DNA of 64,000 nt from an uncultured Clostridia bacterium. GTDB lineage: Bacteria > Bacillota > Clostridia > Christensenellales > Borkfalkiaceae. The translations under genes were made by a program, and so were the position numbers. The notes under the pieces are model-generated. The model made no database searches, had not been told where the DNA came from, and saw nothing but the letters and a program-made list of their open reading frames with translations. Below, piece by piece: positions 50,403 to 63,839 of the stretch; position 1 is the stretch's first letter, and every line of letters begins with the position of its first letter. The DNA lies in NCBI GenBank assembly GCA_944340905.1, contig CALVLT010000001.1, positions 56,617 through 120,616 on the forward strand, written 5' to 3'.

Positions 50403-50409
50403 TGTCTCG

Positions 50410-50600
50410 CTAAAAAGAGGAGCGGAAGAACATCAGTACCGCGTGCACAGAGAAAAAGGGGTTTCTTGCAGGACGTGCGCGGGAAAGGGTATCTCCGCCG
50501 AAGCGCAGCCTTTCCCCTGCGGCTGTGCTGGGTCTGCGGGAGAATACCCGCTTTCCTGTCACCGCCCGCGGTGAAGCGCTTTTTCGGCAGGATATTTCTG
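50410..50600 (+). ncRNA. Lysine riboswitch (L box)
   Basis: Conserved L-box pieces appear in order: AGAGGAGCG (50416-50424), an AGTA, GGAAAGGG, CGCCGAAG, GCTGGGTC and CCTGTCA. These match the five-helix junction consensus. A hairpin that could act as antiterminator follows, then a terminator, so high lysine should stop transcription before asd. Confidence 0.88.
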
Positions 50601-56194: not shown

Positions 56195-56838
56195 GTGATT
56201 GCGTTTGAACACTGTTAAAAAGGTGTTCAAGCGCTTTTTTCACTTCTTTGAGCCTTATGTCCGCGACCTCGGTTGCATTGCCTAATTTGATATGCACAGT
56301 TGCATAGCCGTCGTCTACGAATACTTTGACAACGAGGTTGTCTATCAATTCTTTTGATAGTCCTTGTCGGCGGGGTTGCCTTTCAATAAGTCGGCTATAA
56401 ATTAAAGTGTGCGCCGCGTGCGTTGAGTGCGGCGGCAATGTCCTGCTTTTCAACGCCTTTGTCGTATTCCGCGAAAATATAGCGGATAATTTCGGCTTGT
56501 TCTTCGTCCACCTCGACAAACTTTATATTTTTGTTCCGTCTGCCAACGCTCGCGGTCGGCTCTTGGCGCAGTTTATAGCCGTACACAAGATGACCGCCGC
56601 AAAACGTACCGTTTGCAACGCTTGTGTCAAGCCCGTTGCGCACACGCTTTGAAAGGCGTTTACTGTATTTTTCGTCGTTCCATTCAAGGAACATTTCATA
56701 AAATTCGCCGCCCTCGTCGTCGCTAATGGGCTGTGTTGCCGATATTACCCGAACGCCGTATTCCTGTTTAAGCATTTCTTTATACATGATATTGTCGCGG
56801 CGATTGCAGGCAAAGCGGTCGAACATATAAACTGTCAA
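56195..56838 (-). pseudogene. Large serine recombinase remnant
   Basis: Reading the minus strand from 56838, VYMFDRFACNRRDNIMYKEML and SATQPISDDEGGEFYE come from a resolvase catalytic domain that lacks its first 70 or so residues, including the catalytic Ser. FCGGHLVYGYK begins the recombinase domain. Translation stops at 56395, and the homologous C-terminal end (LSKELIDNLVVKVFVDDGYATVHIKLG) follows in another frame to about 56200. The zinc-ribbon middle is deleted. It is a relic of an earlier element at the same tRNA. Confidence 0.75.
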
Positions 56839-57115: not shown

Positions 57116-59839
57116 ATGAAAAGGAAACTGTTACTTGTGCCGCTCGGCATGCTTATAGCAACCTGCTGTGCTATCGGTTTTGCTGCATGCAACGGCGATG
57201 ATGAAAAAAGTGAGCCTGTTTCCGTAGATAATGTTTCGCAGCTCGCGGAGCAGTACGGCGCGCAGGCAAAAAACTTTTTCGTAAACGAAGTCATCGAAAA
57301 AGCGCTGCCAGCTGAAACGAACTTCGCTGCGGAAAACGTGTTGGGTGCTACGGTCGATCTCGGCGATCCGCAGGCTAGGGAATTACAGTCCGTTAAAATT
57401 GTTTTGTTTTACGCAAGCAATGCCGTTGACCGCGTTTACAGCGTCAGCGAAATTGCTTTTACAGAGCCTGTCGCGTTGAATGCTGTCGCAGGGTACAATT
57501 GCGCAAGTTCTGTCAATGCCGCGGCAACGGAATTGTATAGCGATAATTTGAATATTTTGGATTATGCGTATAACAGCAACTCGCTTGCAGAAGCAATCTA
57601 TAAAAAGGTCGTACAATCGGACGAAACACCCTTTCAACTTACGTTAAAATATGAGGGGGAAATTTATTTTGCATTAGGGAATACCACAAAAGTAACATTA
57701 TGTAATGAATATGAACTGTTTACACAAACGGAAAAAACGGTAAAAAAATATAGGCTGGTAGTTAGGCAACAGGATAGCGAAGAAGAAATCATAGAGAGCC
57801 TGAGCAACGAAAAGAATTATAAAATTTGGGAAGCCAAAGAAATCACGACGTTGCAAACGCCATTTATTATTTCCGATTATCGGCAGGAAAACGAGAGCGA
57901 TATCCCCGCGGCGGAAAACTTTATGACTTTTGAGCCGTATGGAAATGGTTACGCGGTAACCGGATTGGATGAAAGGTATCGGGGAAAAGCGATAGAAATC
58001 CCCGTTTCTCATAACGGTATGCCTGTGACGAGTATTGGTAATCATGCGTTTGGAGGGTGCGCTTCAATTACGAATGTAACCATTCCCGACAGTGTGACGA
58101 GTATCGGAGAGCGTGCGTTCAACGGTTGCAGTTCGCTTACGAGCGCAGCAATCGGTAGCGGTATAACGAGCATTGCCGCGAGCGTATTTTCAGGATGCGA
58201 TTCGCTTACAGATATATATATTACAGATATAGCACCTTGGTGCGGAATTGAGTTCGGCGATGCTCTGTCGGATGGTGCTAGACTGTATCTTAACAATGAA
58301 CTTGTCACCGATCTCGTTATCCCCGACGGCGTAACAAGTATCGGCGATTATGCATTCGCTGGTTTCACTTCAATTACGAGCGTAACAATTCCGGATAGCG
58401 TAACGAGTATCGGCCGCAGCACTTTTTCAGACTGCCCGATAGAAACTGCAACCATGCCTACGCTTGCAATAGGTTCTATTCCGGAAACAAATCTTAAAAC
58501 TGTTGTGATCACTAGCGGGAAAGTTATTGAAGATTCTGAATTCCGCGGATATCCTTTGCTTTCAAGCGTAACGCTCGGCAACAGCGTTCAGAATATCGGG
58601 AAAAGCGCGTTTGAAAATTGCAGCTCGTTGAAAAGTATCGCCTTTGCCGAAAACCTGACAAGTATCGGAAAGGATGCGTTTAAGGAATGTGAAGCACTTG
58701 AAGGCGTGTATATCACGAATCTCGCGGCATGGTGCGGTATTACATTCGGTAGCAGTACTGATTCTACTTGGAACGATACTTGGGCAAATCCTCTGTATTT
58801 CGCAAAAAAATTATATCTGGACGGAGATCTCATAACCGACCTCGTTGTTCCGGACGGAGTGACGAGTATCAATGCCAGAGTTTTTTCTAACGGCGATTTC
58901 ACAAGTATAACGATTCCGGACAGCGTGACAAGTGTTGGCGGCGGTAACTTCGGCAATACGTACGAAAAAGCAACCGTTCCCGCACACATTTTGGGAAATA
59001 TAAAGCATACGAACTTGAAAACAGTTGTGATCACAAGCGGAGAAACTATTAGCGAGTATGCTCTCTCCGGATGTAGCAGTTTGACAAGCGTCACGATCCC
59101 CGACAGCGTGAACAGTATCGGCAATTATGCGTTCTCCGGTTGTGGCAGTTTGCCGAACATTGCTATCCCTGGCAGCGTTGAGAGTATCGGAGAGTATGCG
59201 TTTGAGGATTGCACCTCGCTCACGAGTATAACACTCCCTGATAGCGTGGCGAGTATCGGAGAGTATGCCTTCTATAATTGCAGTTCGCTTACGAGTGTAA
59301 CTATCCCCGACAGCGTGGCGAGTATCGGATATGATGCGTTCGAGGATTGCAGTTTGCTTACGATATATTGCGAAGCTGTTAAAAAACCAAGTGGCTGGAA
59401 TAGTTATTGGAATTCGGATTGTCCCGTCGTTTGGAATTGCAACAATAATGACACGGCGAACGATGGATATATCTATACTGTAATATACGGTATTCGTTAT
59501 GCATTAAAGAACGGATCGGCTACGGTTGTAAGACAATCCTCCTCTTTGAGCGGCAGTATTTCTATCCCTGCAGGCTTTACCTATAAGAATATGGAATATA
59601 GAGTGACGAGTATCGGAATATCTGCGTTCGAGGGTTGCAGTTCACTTACGTGCGTGACCATCCCTGACGACGTAACGAGCATCGGAAAGTATGCGTTCTG
59701 GAATTGCAGTTCGCTTACGGACATCAACTTTGTCGGTATAAAAGAGAAATGGGAAGCAATTTCAAAAGGTGCTTCTTGGAACAATGGTACCGGCAACTAC
59801 ACAGTCCACTGCATTGACGGAGATATAGCGAAAAGCTGA
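57116..59839 (+). CDS. BspA-type leucine-rich-repeat surface lipoprotein
   Basis: 907 residues. The signal peptide ends in the lipobox GFAAC (Cys at about 25). An N-terminal domain of about 250 residues is unrecognised. Then come roughly 15 BspA-type LRR units (for example IGERAFNGCSSLTSAAIGSG and VTIPDSVASIGEYAF), with two inserted blocks ending in DLVIPDGVTSI and DLVVPDGVTSI. No sortase signal. AGGAGG lies six to seven bases before the ATG. The DNA is clearly AT-richer than the 1-53 kb region, suggesting acquisition. Likely adhesin; LRRs of this type are also found in protozoan-associated bacteria. Confidence 0.85.
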   Translation: MKRKLLLVPLGMLIATCCAIGFAACNGDDEKSEPVSVDNVSQLAEQYGAQAKNFFVNEVIEKALPAETNFAAENVLGATVDLGDPQARELQSVKIVLFYASNAVDRVYSVSEIAFTEPVALNAVAGYNCASSVNAAATELYSDNLNILDYAYNSNSLAEAIYKKVVQSDETPFQLTLKYEGEIYFALGNTTKVTLCNEYELFTQTEKTVKKYRLVVRQQDSEEEIIESLSNEKNYKIWEAKEITTLQTPFIISDYRQENESDIPAAENFMTFEPYGNGYAVTGLDERYRGKAIEIPVSHNGMPVTSIGNHAFGGCASITNVTIPDSVTSIGERAFNGCSSLTSAAIGSGITSIAASVFSGCDSLTDIYITDIAPWCGIEFGDALSDGARLYLNNELVTDLVIPDGVTSIGDYAFAGFTSITSVTIPDSVTSIGRSTFSDCPIETATMPTLAIGSIPETNLKTVVITSGKVIEDSEFRGYPLLSSVTLGNSVQNIGKSAFENCSSLKSIAFAENLTSIGKDAFKECEALEGVYITNLAAWCGITFGSSTDSTWNDTWANPLYFAKKLYLDGDLITDLVVPDGVTSINARVFSNGDFTSITIPDSVTSVGGGNFGNTYEKATVPAHILGNIKHTNLKTVVITSGETISEYALSGCSSLTSVTIPDSVNSIGNYAFSGCGSLPNIAIPGSVESIGEYAFEDCTSLTSITLPDSVASIGEYAFYNCSSLTSVTIPDSVASIGYDAFEDCSLLTIYCEAVKKPSGWNSYWNSDCPVVWNCNNNDTANDGYIYTVIYGIRYALKNGSATVVRQSSSLSGSISIPAGFTYKNMEYRVTSIGISAFEGCSSLTCVTIPDDVTSIGKYAFWNCSSLTDINFVGIKEKWEAISKGASWNNGTGNYTVHCIDGDIAKS

Positions 59840-59902: not shown

Positions 59903-60422
59903 TTTGGCACCGTGGCGTGTGCTAGGCATAGACAAGTGCGGCTTTTAGGCATTGTGGTGCGGCTGTCGCCACACCACAAACCTTCGCGCTTCGCGCTCGG
60001 GCGCCGCAGCCAAGCACACGCCACGAAAAAGACAACCAGAACAACACGGAAAACCAAATCAACAGGGTTCCCGAAAAAGATTTGCGACGCAAAGATTTTT
60101 GGGAAGAGGAGACGTAACGGAGCAAAGCGGGCGGGTTGCTTTGGCAAGCCGCCGAAAAGCGAAGTTTACGGCGACGAGAAAGCGCGGCGGCGCGGAGCCG
60201 TCCCCGCTGATCCGCTTGAGGATAGGCTGCCGCTTTTTCCGCCGCGCACAGCTTTCTATCATTGGTTTTTACCGTTTATTACACCTTTTGAATTTGCCTT
60301 TTCGGTCAGGCTATGGTAGCATAGTTCCTCGCGGAAATCAACGGTCGCAAAATCGTCGCTGAAAACACCCATAAAAGACTTTTAGAGCCGAGTAAGGATT
60401 GCACTCCTTGCTCGGCTCTTTT
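59903..60422 (+). ncRNA. Structured element copy A (unrecognised; RNA or replication origin)
   Basis: Starts with TTTGGCACC. Next a 12-bp stem GTGGCGTGTGCT (59912-59923) pairs with 60013-60024, enclosing further hairpins. A hairpin at 60068-60105 has symmetric GA/GA internal loops. The core hairpin (60182-60247) has a 9-bp outer stem, two inner stems and the 12-base loop GCTGATCCGCTT (60206-60217). A strong terminator hairpin lies at 60384-60422 (AGAGCCGAG/CTCGGCTCT then TTTT). No convincing protein frame. It shares architecture with copy B at 62062. Confidence 0.6.
60384..60422 (+). terminator. Strong terminator closing copy A
   Basis: Nine-base-pair AGAGCCGAG/CTCGGCTCT stem extended by AAGGA/TCCTT after a one-base mismatch, then TTTT. 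No protein gene ends here, which supports a transcribed non-coding element upstream. Confidence 0.75.
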
Positions 60423-60705
60423 GCTGTCTGTGAGTTATTTAGCACGCTTATAATGCAACGATTTTTCTTTGCCCCGTTGACTTCCGCAGGCTTGCTATCA
60501 AGAGCACCGATTCCCACCGTCCTATGCCCTCCGCCTGTTGCCCGAAAAAGGCAAATACAAATTCAGAGGGGAATATGTTGGGCTGCAAGGAAAATAGCAT
60601 CTATCTCAAATCAGAAAAGAAAATACCCAGCCAAAACTCTTTGCCGTTGACAAATAAGTTCGATGGGTATCGTGTGGTGGAGAAGTAGTAACCTAAAACG
60701 AATAT
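60423..60705. other. Non-coding gap, possible decayed frame
   Basis: I see no gene. A plus-strand frame from about 60525 to 60690 is open and lysine-rich but has no ribosome site and no recognisable family, so it may be a remnant. Confidence 0.35.
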
Positions 60706-61140
60706 TTAATTTCGTCCAAAATCTTTCACCGCTTGTATTCTCACTTTTTCTAATGCGTCGCAAACGTTTGATAGTCGTTCATTATCGCGTTCTAATTTAC
60801 GACACTCGTCTGCGTATTCTTTACTTTGTAAAAACTGTTTATTATATAAGAAATTTTGATATGTTTGATGACACCAATGGTTTCGCTTTTCGGTCATTTG
60901 TTTTAAGAAATTGTAATTGCTTGCAGAAATATAAGGACTTTTGCCACTAAAATCGAGTTCTTTTAATTTTTGGACAGTTTGACCAAGCGACCATTTTTCG
61001 ATTTTATCTAAATTTTCATAGAAATCGCCAACGTGCATTGCAGCATATATACGTTTCACATCGTGTTCTATTACTTGACAATACATTATTGTTTGTCCAA
61101 TCATAAAATGGAAATCATTTAATGTCATATTTAACGCCAT
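60706..61140 (-). CDS. HEPN-like helical protein (RX4H motif)
   Basis: 144 residues, all helical. The segment EKRNHWCHQTYQNF contains RNHWCH (Arg86, His91), the RX4-6H signature of HEPN RNases, placed near the start of the last helical part as expected. HEPN proteins often act as toxins or defence RNases cutting RNA. The call rests on one motif plus size and helicity. The gene is AT-rich and sits one base after the lipoprotein stop, with no ribosome site of its own, so it is coupled. Confidence 0.5.
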   Translation of the reverse strand: MALNMTLNDFHFMIGQTIMYCQVIEHDVKRIYAAMHVGDFYENLDKIEKWSLGQTVQKLKELDFSGKSPYISASNYNFLKQMTEKRNHWCHQTYQNFLYNKQFLQSKEYADECRKLERDNERLSNVCDALEKVRIQAVKDFGRN

Positions 61141-61141
61141 A

Positions 61142-61561
61142 TCAAATCCAATATATTATAGTACCCGAAACATTGGTTATTTCGTAACTTGAACTACCAT
61201 ATCTTGAACTACTCGTTGTTATAGTCCCACAACCACCAACATTCAAAGATAATGTTCTTTCAGTTGTTGTATCATTAGAACGATAATCGTATGTTATAAC
61301 TACGTTATCATAAAACGCATATGATAATGCCCCTCTAAAATAGTGATACGAAGTAGATGATGCGCTACCAACCACATAATTGGTTTCGATAGTTAAAAAT
61401 TTTTGATAGTTATCTTTTGTAATGCTAACTATATGTTTTTCCATTACCGACACTTCATTTGACGGGGTGTCAGTGGTTTGAATTTGCCCATTATTTGATG
61501 TGCAACCTGTCATATAAAGCAAACAAATACTTAAAAGTAGCGGAACAAAAAATTTTTTCAT
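61142..61561 (-). CDS. Small lipoprotein, unknown
   Basis: 139 residues. Signal peptide with lipobox MTGC (Cys about 20), a short Ser/Thr-rich linker and a beta-rich domain with SSTSYHYFRGALSYAFYD and VGGCGTITTSSS. No family recognised. It lies between the zinc-ribbon gene (13 bases) and the HEPN-like gene, forming a three-gene unit with matching AT-rich composition. Confidence 0.6.
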   Translation of the reverse strand: MKKFFVPLLLSICLLYMTGCTSNNGQIQTTDTPSNEVSVMEKHIVSITKDNYQKFLTIETNYVVGSASSTSYHYFRGALSYAFYDNVVITYDYRSNDTTTERTLSLNVGGCGTITTSSSRYGSSSYEITNVSGTIIYWI

Positions 61562-61574
61562 ATTGACTCTCCAT

Positions 61575-61958
61575 TTACAACTTAAAATAGGTATGTCGAA
61601 TTCGTATATTTAATTTGTCTTGGATTTCAGTTAATTCTCTTTGCGCTTCTTTCAATTCTTTTAGTGTGTGATTTTCATCTTGTAAGAATTGCTCTAATTC
61701 TTGCATACGATTCCGTAACCGTTCTTCTTCACGCTTCCGTTTTTCTTCCGCTTGCCTACGTTCTTCGGCAATACGTTTTTGTTCAATTTTCTTATTTATC
61801 AATTCTTGCGGCATAAATAATTCAACTCTGCCGCAATTCATACACACATAAGATTCAACAAGTTGCGTAGCCCCTCCCTCTGTACAATGAATTTGATACA
61901 GTTGCATTTGCTCAAATTCAGTTTTCCCACAATTAGGACACTTCACAATTGCCTCCAT
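61575..61958 (-). CDS. Zinc-ribbon plus coiled-coil protein
   Basis: 127 residues from the ATG at 61958 (MEAIVKCPNCGKTEFEQ). CPNC and CMNC (about residues 7-10 and 38-41) form a zinc ribbon; residues 55-120 are a charged coiled coil rich in Glu, Arg and Gln. First gene of the unit. There is no ribosome site and the leader is short. An in-frame upstream extension would start inside the promoter, so it is rejected. Function unknown; ribbon-coiled-coil proteins often mediate contacts in membrane or nucleic-acid complexes. Confidence 0.6.
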   Translation of the reverse strand: MEAIVKCPNCGKTEFEQMQLYQIHCTEGGATQLVESYVCMNCGRVELFMPQELINKKIEQKRIAEERRQAEEKRKREEERLRNRMQELEQFLQDENHTLKELKEAQRELTEIQDKLNIRIRHTYFKL

Positions 61959-62007
61959 AATGTTTAATTTAATTATAAGAAAAATGATTACCCAAATGGT
62001 TAATTGC

Positions 62008-62036
62008 ATTATATCATAATTATCGACAAATTTCAA
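62008..62036 (-). promoter_or_regulatory. Promoter of the Zn-ribbon/lipoprotein/HEPN-like unit
   Basis: Minus-strand TTGAAA (62031-62036), 17-base spacer, perfect TATAAT (62008-62013). A second TATAAT nearer the gene (61972-61977) lacks a good -35. Confidence 0.65.
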
Positions 62037-62061
62037 TCATTTTGTACTGATAAAACGGACT

Positions 62062-62276
62062 TTTGGCACCATGGCGGGTGCTTGAATAAACGAGCGGCTC
62101 GGCTGCGCCTCGCCGTTCAAGCACCCGCCATAACAACGGAACAAGGCGGAACTCAAAGCGCACGGGAACGGGCGTTCGCCGCTGAACCGCTTGGCGATCC
62201 GCCCTTATCTCCCGTGCGACGGTATTTGAGCAAGCGCCTTTTATATGCCGTCGGTATCCGTATATCGGCGGTTTTT
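62062..62276 (+). ncRNA. Structured element copy B (unrecognised; RNA or replication origin)
   Basis: TTTGGCACC, then a perfect 16-bp stem ATGGCGGGTGCTTGAA (62071-62086) paired with 62116-62131. The core hairpin (62159-62218) has a 9-bp outer stem CGCACGGGA/TCCCGTGCG, GGGCG/CGCCC, CGCC/GGCG and the 12-base loop GCTGAACCGCTT (62181-62192). It ends in a terminator at 62248-62276. Stem sequences differ from copy A while pairing and loop are kept. Confidence 0.6.
62248..62276 (+). terminator. Terminator closing copy B
   Basis: CCGTCGGTA/TATCGGCGG stem (two G-U pairs) with a six-base loop, followed by TTTTT. No protein gene ends here. Confidence 0.65.
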
Positions 62277-62520: not shown

Positions 62521-62658
62521 GTGCTGAAAACAGAACTCGAAGTCGTTACTGTCGGAACGCCCGACATAACGGCATTGTCAGACGACGAAAGGCGTGTTTT
62601 CTTTGAAACGATAATGGCAAGAGTTTTGGAATTGGCAAAAGAACGGAAAGAATTGTAA
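62521..62658 (+). CDS. 45-residue helical protein upstream of rep
   Basis: GTG start with an excellent AGGAGG eight bases upstream. The product begins MLKTELEVVTVGTPDITALS, then a long charged helix ending in AKERKEL. No family recognised. The strong ribosome site argues that it is translated; its place before rep suggests a small regulator or accessory protein of the replicon. Confidence 0.6.
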   Translation: MLKTELEVVTVGTPDITALSDDERRVFFETIMARVLELAKERKEL

Positions 62659-62954: not shown

Positions 62955-63839
62955 ATGCCATATCGGGCAAGCAAAATTTACTATGACGGCAGTCATTATA
63001 TCGCCGTCCCGAAAGAAAACTTTCCGAGCCGTAAAGGCAGAAAAACGCCAATGAAAAGCAGTCCGCAAGCAGACAACATAAAAGCAAAGTTTGAAACGGC
63101 TTATGCGGAAAGTCAGGCATTGCCGAAACGTGAACGCCGCAAATACGTTACGGAGAAACTGCAAGACGAATTTACCGACAAAACGCAAACCGAAGAATAC
63201 GTCAAACGGCAGACAGAACGCAAGAGAAACAACGCATACAAGCGGTATACGAGGCTTTGGCACAAAGTATATCTGCAACGCAATTGGAATTTCTTTGTAA
63301 CGTGTACATATTCAGACGAAAAACACACGGAACAGACCTTTCAAAAGACGTTGCACAATACTTTGAAACACCTTGTAAGCCGCAAGGGCTGGAAGTATAT
63401 CGGCGTTTGGGAGCGTTCGGCAAGTGAGCGGTTACATTTTCACGGGATATTCTATATCCCCGAAAACGCTATGGTGGGTGAACTGAAACAAGTCAGCGAT
63501 TACAGCACTAAACAACACCGAATGCAGACAACATACCAAAACACTCATTTTTTGCGGTATTTTGGCAGAAACGATTTCAAGGAGATAGACAAAAACGAAG
63601 TTGTGCAATCCGTCCGTTATCTGCTCAAATACATAGAAAAAAGCGGAGAAAGATTGGTATACGGCGGAGATTTGCCGACCTATTTCAAGTCGGACGTTAT
63701 GGACGAAGATATTGTCTGCCCGACAGGGATAGACGGAAGAAAAGCCCTGTTGTTCGACGACTTTAACTGTTGGGACGAGGGGTGCCTTATCGGCAAAGTA
63801 AGTCCCGAAACCATATCGCAGTTGCCGAAGTGCAATTAA
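62955..63839 (+). CDS. HUH rolling-circle replication-associated protein
   Basis: 294 residues from ATG at 62955 (AGGAG eight bases upstream). FFVTCTYSD (113-121) is motif 1, HFH at 161-163 in RLHFHGIFYIP is the HUH metal site, and RYLLKYIEKS (Tyr222, Tyr226) holds the nicking tyrosine. The N-terminus is basic. It resembles Reps of small Firmicutes RCR elements and is only distantly similar to the Rep at 54640. A 14-bp inverted repeat follows the stop. The element continues beyond the window. Confidence 0.8.
   Translation: MPYRASKIYYDGSHYIAVPKENFPSRKGRKTPMKSSPQADNIKAKFETAYAESQALPKRERRKYVTEKLQDEFTDKTQTEEYVKRQTERKRNNAYKRYTRLWHKVYLQRNWNFFVTCTYSDEKHTEQTFQKTLHNTLKHLVSRKGWKYIGVWERSASERLHFHGIFYIPENAMVGELKQVSDYSTKQHRMQTTYQNTHFLRYFGRNDFKEIDKNEVVQSVRYLLKYIEKSGERLVYGGDLPTYFKSDVMDEDIVCPTGIDGRKALLFDDFNCWDEGCLIGKVSPETISQLPKCN

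Follow-up and report, generated by a model that had tools for sequence, protein, structure and literature searches.

Introduction

Filamentous phages (Ff) have an intergenic region in which a packaging hairpin lies beside the replication origin. Other mobile elements, the integrative elements of actinomycetes (AICE) and the tycheposons, integrate at tRNA genes by means of a tyrosine recombinase, and AICE replicate by the rolling-circle mode. Small elements that depend on filamentous phages have been described as well: PMC11389934 names pDolos and RS1 as such elements, places pDolos among the satellites of single-stranded DNA phages, mentions that defence systems occur on satellites and also names tycheposons.

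This article describes a locus at the end of contig C1 in the draft genome (1.85 Mb, 55 contigs) of an uncultured Clostridia bacterium, analysed as a stretch of 64,000 nucleotides (the window). Two copies of a structured DNA element, A and B, occur there on the same (+) strand. Each is probably a rolling-circle replication origin region composed of two DNA hairpins, a reading supported by the recurrence of this pair next to HUH Rep genes as well as in relatives without Rep. The small tRNA-adjacent mobile islands to which these origins would belong are often equipped with anti-phage genes. They may travel as satellites of filamentous-phage-like prophages, which in related gut bacteria have an origin of the same design.

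Two Hairpins in Each Copy

Each copy begins with a long-stem hairpin, followed by a core hairpin with the loop GCTRAMCCGCTT. In copy A the long-stem hairpin spans 59903-60026 (+), with 17-bp arms about 80 nt apart and a long apex, and the core lies at 60167-60257 (+), with its loop GCTGATCCGCTT at 60206-60217 and a mismatch in the clamp stem. The corresponding parts of copy B are found at 62070-62133 (+; 18 bp by fold and arm-pairing script) and at 62144-62230 (+), the loop GCTGAACCGCTT occupying 62181-62192. An earlier, sequence-only reading had recognised two structured copies in one orientation, and both were recovered on the same strand; the long stems it described are present too, although they measure 17 bp (A) and 18 bp (B) instead of 12 and 16 bp. 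Folded as single-stranded DNA, B reaches -61.4 kcal/mol, where its shuffled versions average -40.9 +/- 3.2 (z -6.4; 0 of 200), and A reaches -113.6 kcal/mol, where they average -89.3 +/- 5.0 (z -4.9; 0 of 100). A covariance model of the core gives 76.8 bits to B and 67.0 bits to A, the next-best site in the 64 kb scoring 15.3; the values of A and B are not independent, as both are among the 37 sequences on which the model was trained. The Rho-independent terminators proposed for both copies were found as terminator-like hairpins on their 3' side, at 60384-60419 (A) and 62247-62272 (B), but sites of this kind are about as many in the region (4) as in shuffles (3.2 +/- 2.1).

Six pattern matches were obtained in the same genome and five of them are real copies by eye: two on C1 and one each on C17, C35 and C44, the last two truncated by contig ends. 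The sixth is a stretch with an open frame where the inverted arm is absent by eye. The long-stem hairpin of A has a 95% identical copy on C17. Elsewhere in the window, a lysine riboswitch (84.7 bits) was noticed at 50407-50589.

The Core Hairpin Across Related Genomes

A search of related genomes with the covariance model, which the earlier reading had suggested, found matches in 86 of 301 genomes, covering 26 of 97 genera. The loops read GCTRAMCCGCTT with few exceptions. In most single folds GC pairs with GC to enclose the six bases TRAMCC; a TT bulge and then the clamp stem follow, and a second stem is separated from the outer stem by unpaired bases on the 3' side.

The first model's RNAalifold structure had no outer stem, and the covariation count was accordingly confined to the inner helix. 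From the 38 origins listed, 37 entered alignment A1 (L077 was omitted) and 34 entered A2. Over 31 distinct rows, 85.5% of the cells of the innermost eight pairs are paired (69.1 +/- 1.8 when shuffled, 20-46% when slid), 46 cells are changed on both sides (18.4 +/- 3.0 when shuffled) and the covariation score is 0.419 (0.150 +/- 0.023 when shuffled, at most 0.173 when slid); none of 500 shuffles reaches any of these three values. Two other measures do not stand out, namely the pairs with both sides changed (5 against 4.6 in shuffles, reached by 314 of 500) and the further pair types (14 against 11.5, reached by 40 of 500). The compensating changes claimed from A and B alone are borne out on three of the five measures, by which the innermost helix keeps its pairing despite changes in the stem, and not on the other two. 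By those three measures the core is a conserved loop on a covarying stem.

The Long-Stem Hairpin

Upstream of the core, 54 of 70 distinct origins have a hairpin of 12-22 bp with GCTTG in its left arm, and at least 14 pairs are formed in 53 of these. Copy A, whose arm reads GCTAG, was not counted among the 54. In three loci (L031, L032 and L036) a hairpin with another arm sequence, still retaining CTTG, occupies the same place, and no long-stem hairpin was found in seven origins, some of which lack upstream sequence. The differences between the arms may point to selection at the level of structure. Lying 5' of the core, this hairpin would act as an accessory site, either a complementary-strand origin or a packaging signal.

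Because 83 sites share a sharp left edge, the hairpin was also considered to mark where a transposon ends on the left; this reading fell, as many left flanks are shared too, some over only 45-180 nt, and an end of the element was located farther left. The 83 sites comprise 27 with both hairpins, 35 cut inside the hairpin, two cut that nevertheless have the loop, and 19 with the long-stem hairpin only, a class in which some sites are truncated by contig ends and two palindromes are counted on both strands. In one cut copy (L165, which is also L256 and L307) an internal deletion has left 31 nt of hairpin sequence fused to the right end; that the other cut copies are internal deletions too is a guess. 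Many of the 35 sites are cut near the apex, which would fit long hairpins being hot spots of deletion. Solo near-perfect palindromes of the long-stem hairpin alone were seen at L153:1498-1576 and at L086:1909-1992, where the sequence reads TTTGGCACC...GGTGCCAAA.

The Rep Gene and Its Pairing With the Origin

A HUH rep gene had been placed after B, and a HUH rolling-circle Rep of the REP_ORF2-G2P type (PF23343, E 1.7e-11) is encoded there at 62955-63839 (+). HFH at residues 161-163 and the tyrosines Y222 and Y226 of its YxxxY pair are invariant in 19 aligned sequences, L097 having been omitted for an internal stop. A small ORF of 45 aa with a GTG start lies at 62521-62658 (+) and has no family above cut-off. 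The predicted structure of Rep reaches a pLDDT of 46.9 from the single sequence and 72.2 in the alignment-based model, and such a modelled fold would by itself be weak evidence for an origin. Relatives of this Rep elsewhere are few (two phage records, two weak plasmid records and two viral contigs), and no sequence relative was found in the PDB at E 1.

When cut copies of the same gene are merged, 67 Rep ORFs reduce to 51 distinct Rep genes, 38 of which have the origin loop in reach: upstream on the same strand in 20, convergent and downstream in 17, and in both places in one. No loop match was found where sought for the remaining 13, which counts against the origin reading. The HUH gene adjoins the origin in B and in many relatives, and not in A or in other Rep-less copies. 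The core hairpin is not always adjacent to Rep: among 20 hand-picked core matches in other genera Rep is present in 7 and absent in 13, and 10 of these 13 had at least 4 kb of downstream sequence, which again counts against an origin. Rep-less copies would need Rep supplied from elsewhere; one such locus (L240) retains both hairpins together with a DpnII system.

Element B, Its Left End and Its Predicted Integration Site

A 26-base motif, GGNGGAGNNGTNNTAACCTAAAACGA, searched with up to two mismatches, has 60 occurrences spread over 43 of the 301 genomes, whereas a reversed-pattern control gave one match. In the window it marks the left end of element B at 60676-60701 (+), with the sequence GGTGGAGAAGTAGTAACCTAAAACGA. 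Forty of the 60 places were examined together with the window, giving 41 units. The first ORF to the right of the left end reads leftward in 35 of the 38 units with an ORF there and mostly ends within 25 bases of the motif. The long-stem motif follows within 6 kb in 21 of the 41 units (in L324 only past several tRNA genes), and several units without it stop at contig ends. A tRNA gene 3' end occurs within 5 kb rightward in 17 of the 41.

The resulting order is left end, leftward cargo, long-stem hairpin, core, Rep, large serine recombinase and tRNA 3' end, present in full through to the tRNA in L300 and L327. The domains of the large serine recombinase were detected by Pfam in relatives; for B, the contig stops after Rep, and a recombinase and right end would lie beyond it. 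In 6 of the 17 units with a tRNA gene, TTCGTTTTAGGTT (at most two mismatches) stands just before the tRNA 3' end, and this right arm is inverted relative to AACCTAAAACGAA, its counterpart at the left end, both being 13-mers. In the junction of a circle, these inverted 13-mers around TGGYGG would form the attachment site. Elements of the B type have defined ends at a preferred target, as is the case in serine-recombinase integrative elements. No empty insertion site was found among 12 relatives with the left-flank gene of L256, in which the available stretch has no tRNA.

Because the left end sits between A and the cargo, the genes that lie between A and B belong to element B. The view that the two copies bracket one cargo unit is not sustained, their placement on either side of it being coincidental, and with it goes half of the earlier proposal of rolling-circle origins that mobilise the DNA between them: origins they appear to be, recurring beside HUH Rep genes, but the cargo is inside an element of its own. 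Copy B would be the live-looking origin of this integrative element starting at 60676. The serine recombinase would cut out and insert the element as a circle, and Rep, predicted to bind the core hairpin and nick it in its nearly invariant loop, would multiply the element as single strands.

Cargo of the Islands

Three genes on the minus strand are the cargo of element B. The first (60706-61140) carries an RX4H motif, by which we take it to be HEPN-like, and has no family match; its protein shares 106 of 110 residues with the product of an ORF next to the left end of an element in a different genus (L301), and a DNA relative of the gene adjoins a left end in L115. The second (61142-61561) encodes a putative lipoprotein with weak matches only and the third (61575-61958) a Zn-ribbon-like protein with none above cut-off. 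A promoter-like site at 62008-62036 (-), TTGAAA-17-TATAAT, with 11 of 12 positions, points leftward into these genes.

In relatives, 14 of 20 cargo proteins, hand-picked for length or looks, match Pfam families of restriction, methylase, nuclease or abortive-infection proteins, not counting DUF4238, trypsin-like, hexapeptide acetyltransferase, RNase T/BRCT, HNH and radical SAM matches. The types include HaeIII, NgoBV and DpnII restriction enzymes with methylases, as well as GmrSD, McrBC, Mrr and AIPR. PADLOC matched 8 of 9 cargo proteins of relatives, missing a McrC-like one, and gave no match for the one window cargo protein tried. Near-identical cargo occurs across host families, with 198 of 199 residues shared between L303 (family f1) and L328 (f24) and 200 of 201 between L325 (f19) and L332 (f32).

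Copy A

Copy A lies outside the element of B and belongs to a different subfamily; as an origin it is damaged and lacks a Rep. About 390 bases from its core onward, including a leader region at 60290-60569 (+) with the terminator-like hairpin described above, match L067, L068 and L069. The Rep gene begins about 1.4-1.5 kb past the origin in L067 and L068; none follows A. The stretch between the two hairpins of A (about 60057-60182, +) is absent at that place from these three Rep-bearing relatives; sequence similar to it is dispersed across the genus and matches many genomes on its own. The relatives of A differ from B-like elements in their recombinase domains and right end.

The interval 60057-60182 is rich in palindromes (TTCCCGAAAAAGATTTGCGACGCAAAGATTTTTGGGAA...). 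Upstream of A, a serine recombinase fragment (Resolvase, E 1e-5) was noticed at 56398-56838, and directly to the left of A (57116-59839) lies a gene for a 907-aa repeat protein, putatively BspA-like as named from its sequence.

A Shared Origin in Phage-Like Loci

Prophage-like loci that encode Zot/pI-like or other membrane ATPases contain this Rep family and hairpin pair too. Four Zot/pI-like proteins were searched and matched phrog_197 with E values of 2.4e-11 to 1.4e-7. One Zot-type locus (L111) is that of a named isolate, Pumilibacter intestinalis. The other ATPase is a membrane protein of 696-725 aa with a GxxGKKKTT-type (GSMGKKKTT-like) loop and no family match in profile searches. An ATPase lies upstream of 18 of the 51 distinct Rep genes (13 of the membrane type, 5 of the Zot type), many of the longer Reps being located behind these ATPases, and a serine recombinase lies downstream of 19. 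No Rep gene has both; 14 have neither, some for short flanks. With the ATPase-type Reps the loop is convergent just downstream in 12 (one with a second loop upstream) and was not found in 6; with the recombinase-type Reps it is upstream on the same strand in 16 and without match in 3. The convergent arrangement is not confined to loci of the phage-like kind, as L237, L244 and L246, which show it, have a recombinase and methylase-like or other cargo-like genes, judged by sequence, and not phage genes. In the viral contig L340 (11405-16437), a phage-like Rep with its origin was seen to be followed by putative DUF262-like and HsdM-like genes.

Since this origin is common to islands and phage-like loci, and a packaging hairpin lies beside the origin in filamentous phages, phages of this kind could pack the islands. 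The islands would then be natural phagemids, satellites of a co-resident phage that replicates and packs the element through the shared origin, with the long-stem hairpin serving as packaging signal; we consider this quite possible, if somewhat short of probable. Consistent with it, the two kinds of Rep neighbourhood do not overlap, and another type of origin loop, CGCAGGCTWTC, is shared by one island (L103) and three Zot loci (L105, L106 and L108). One of the ATPases is also present in 9 of 13 genomes with an island-type Rep against 35 of 138 others (Fisher p 0.002), a comparison in which the 13 genomes come from loci picked by match rank and the genome studied here enters through a membrane ATPase fragment at C7 and, at C42, a Zot-like ATPase of 32% identity. 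However, no major coat gene was identified, and it is by their ATPases that the loci are putative filamentous phages; the membrane ATPase has no family match, only one of the four Zot-like proteins passed the Pfam Zot cut-off, and common descent alone could explain a shared origin. A wider picture is advanced tentatively, as possible though rather less likely than not: integrated natural phagemids in Clostridia would form a clade-wide family with interchangeable anti-phage cassettes, replicating from the two-hairpin origin that co-resident filamentous phages also use and being packed by them, with a lower tier of Rep-less islands that would use the Rep of a phage or of another island.

Other Readings of the Hairpins

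The sequence-only reading had also offered a new non-coding RNA family, which now appears very unlikely. The stable fold, the compensating changes and the terminator-like hairpins would suit an RNA, but the Rfam scan, a check named at the time, gave the hairpins no known family at threshold in the window, the best match below it (E 0.34) being an sRNA family over the terminator-like hairpin of A. Besides, a + strand promoter-like site is absent within 300 bases upstream of A and 260 bases upstream of B, and the position of the hairpins follows Rep genes in two arrangements. Joint mobilisation of the intervening DNA by A and B, in IS91-like one-ended or composite transfer, would fit their common orientation and the HUH Rep with a tyrosine pair beside B, but is highly improbable with a left end between A and the cargo, a different recombinase type and right end in the relatives of A, and the damage to A itself.

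Comparison With Known Systems

Within the open-licence literature, a scope outside which most subscription papers and all bioRxiv preprints fall, this combination was not found described. In the poorly studied gut Clostridia, a mobile carrier of defence genes can thus be searched for by a short DNA signature and recognised by a defined left end, and the question of whether the filamentous phages of these hosts spread such genes becomes open to direct test.

The locus shares with HUH Rep replicons a HUH Rep, a hairpin origin and a conserved loop; here the origin would serve integrated elements, has no Rfam match, and its nick site is predicted. Like AICE and tycheposons, the islands are located at tRNA genes, but they have a serine recombinase instead of a tyrosine recombinase and no transfer genes were noticed in them. 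With respect to the Inoviridae, the islands differ in having no phage structural genes and in their clostridial hosts, while the intergenic region of these phages likewise contains two adjacent hairpins, one of them an origin, and a Zot/pI-like ATPase adjoins the same Rep family and origin in loci related to the islands. Finally, pDolos is a plasmid, whereas the islands described here are integrated at the 3' ends of tRNA genes, often together with defence genes, and may, like it, depend on a filamentous phage.
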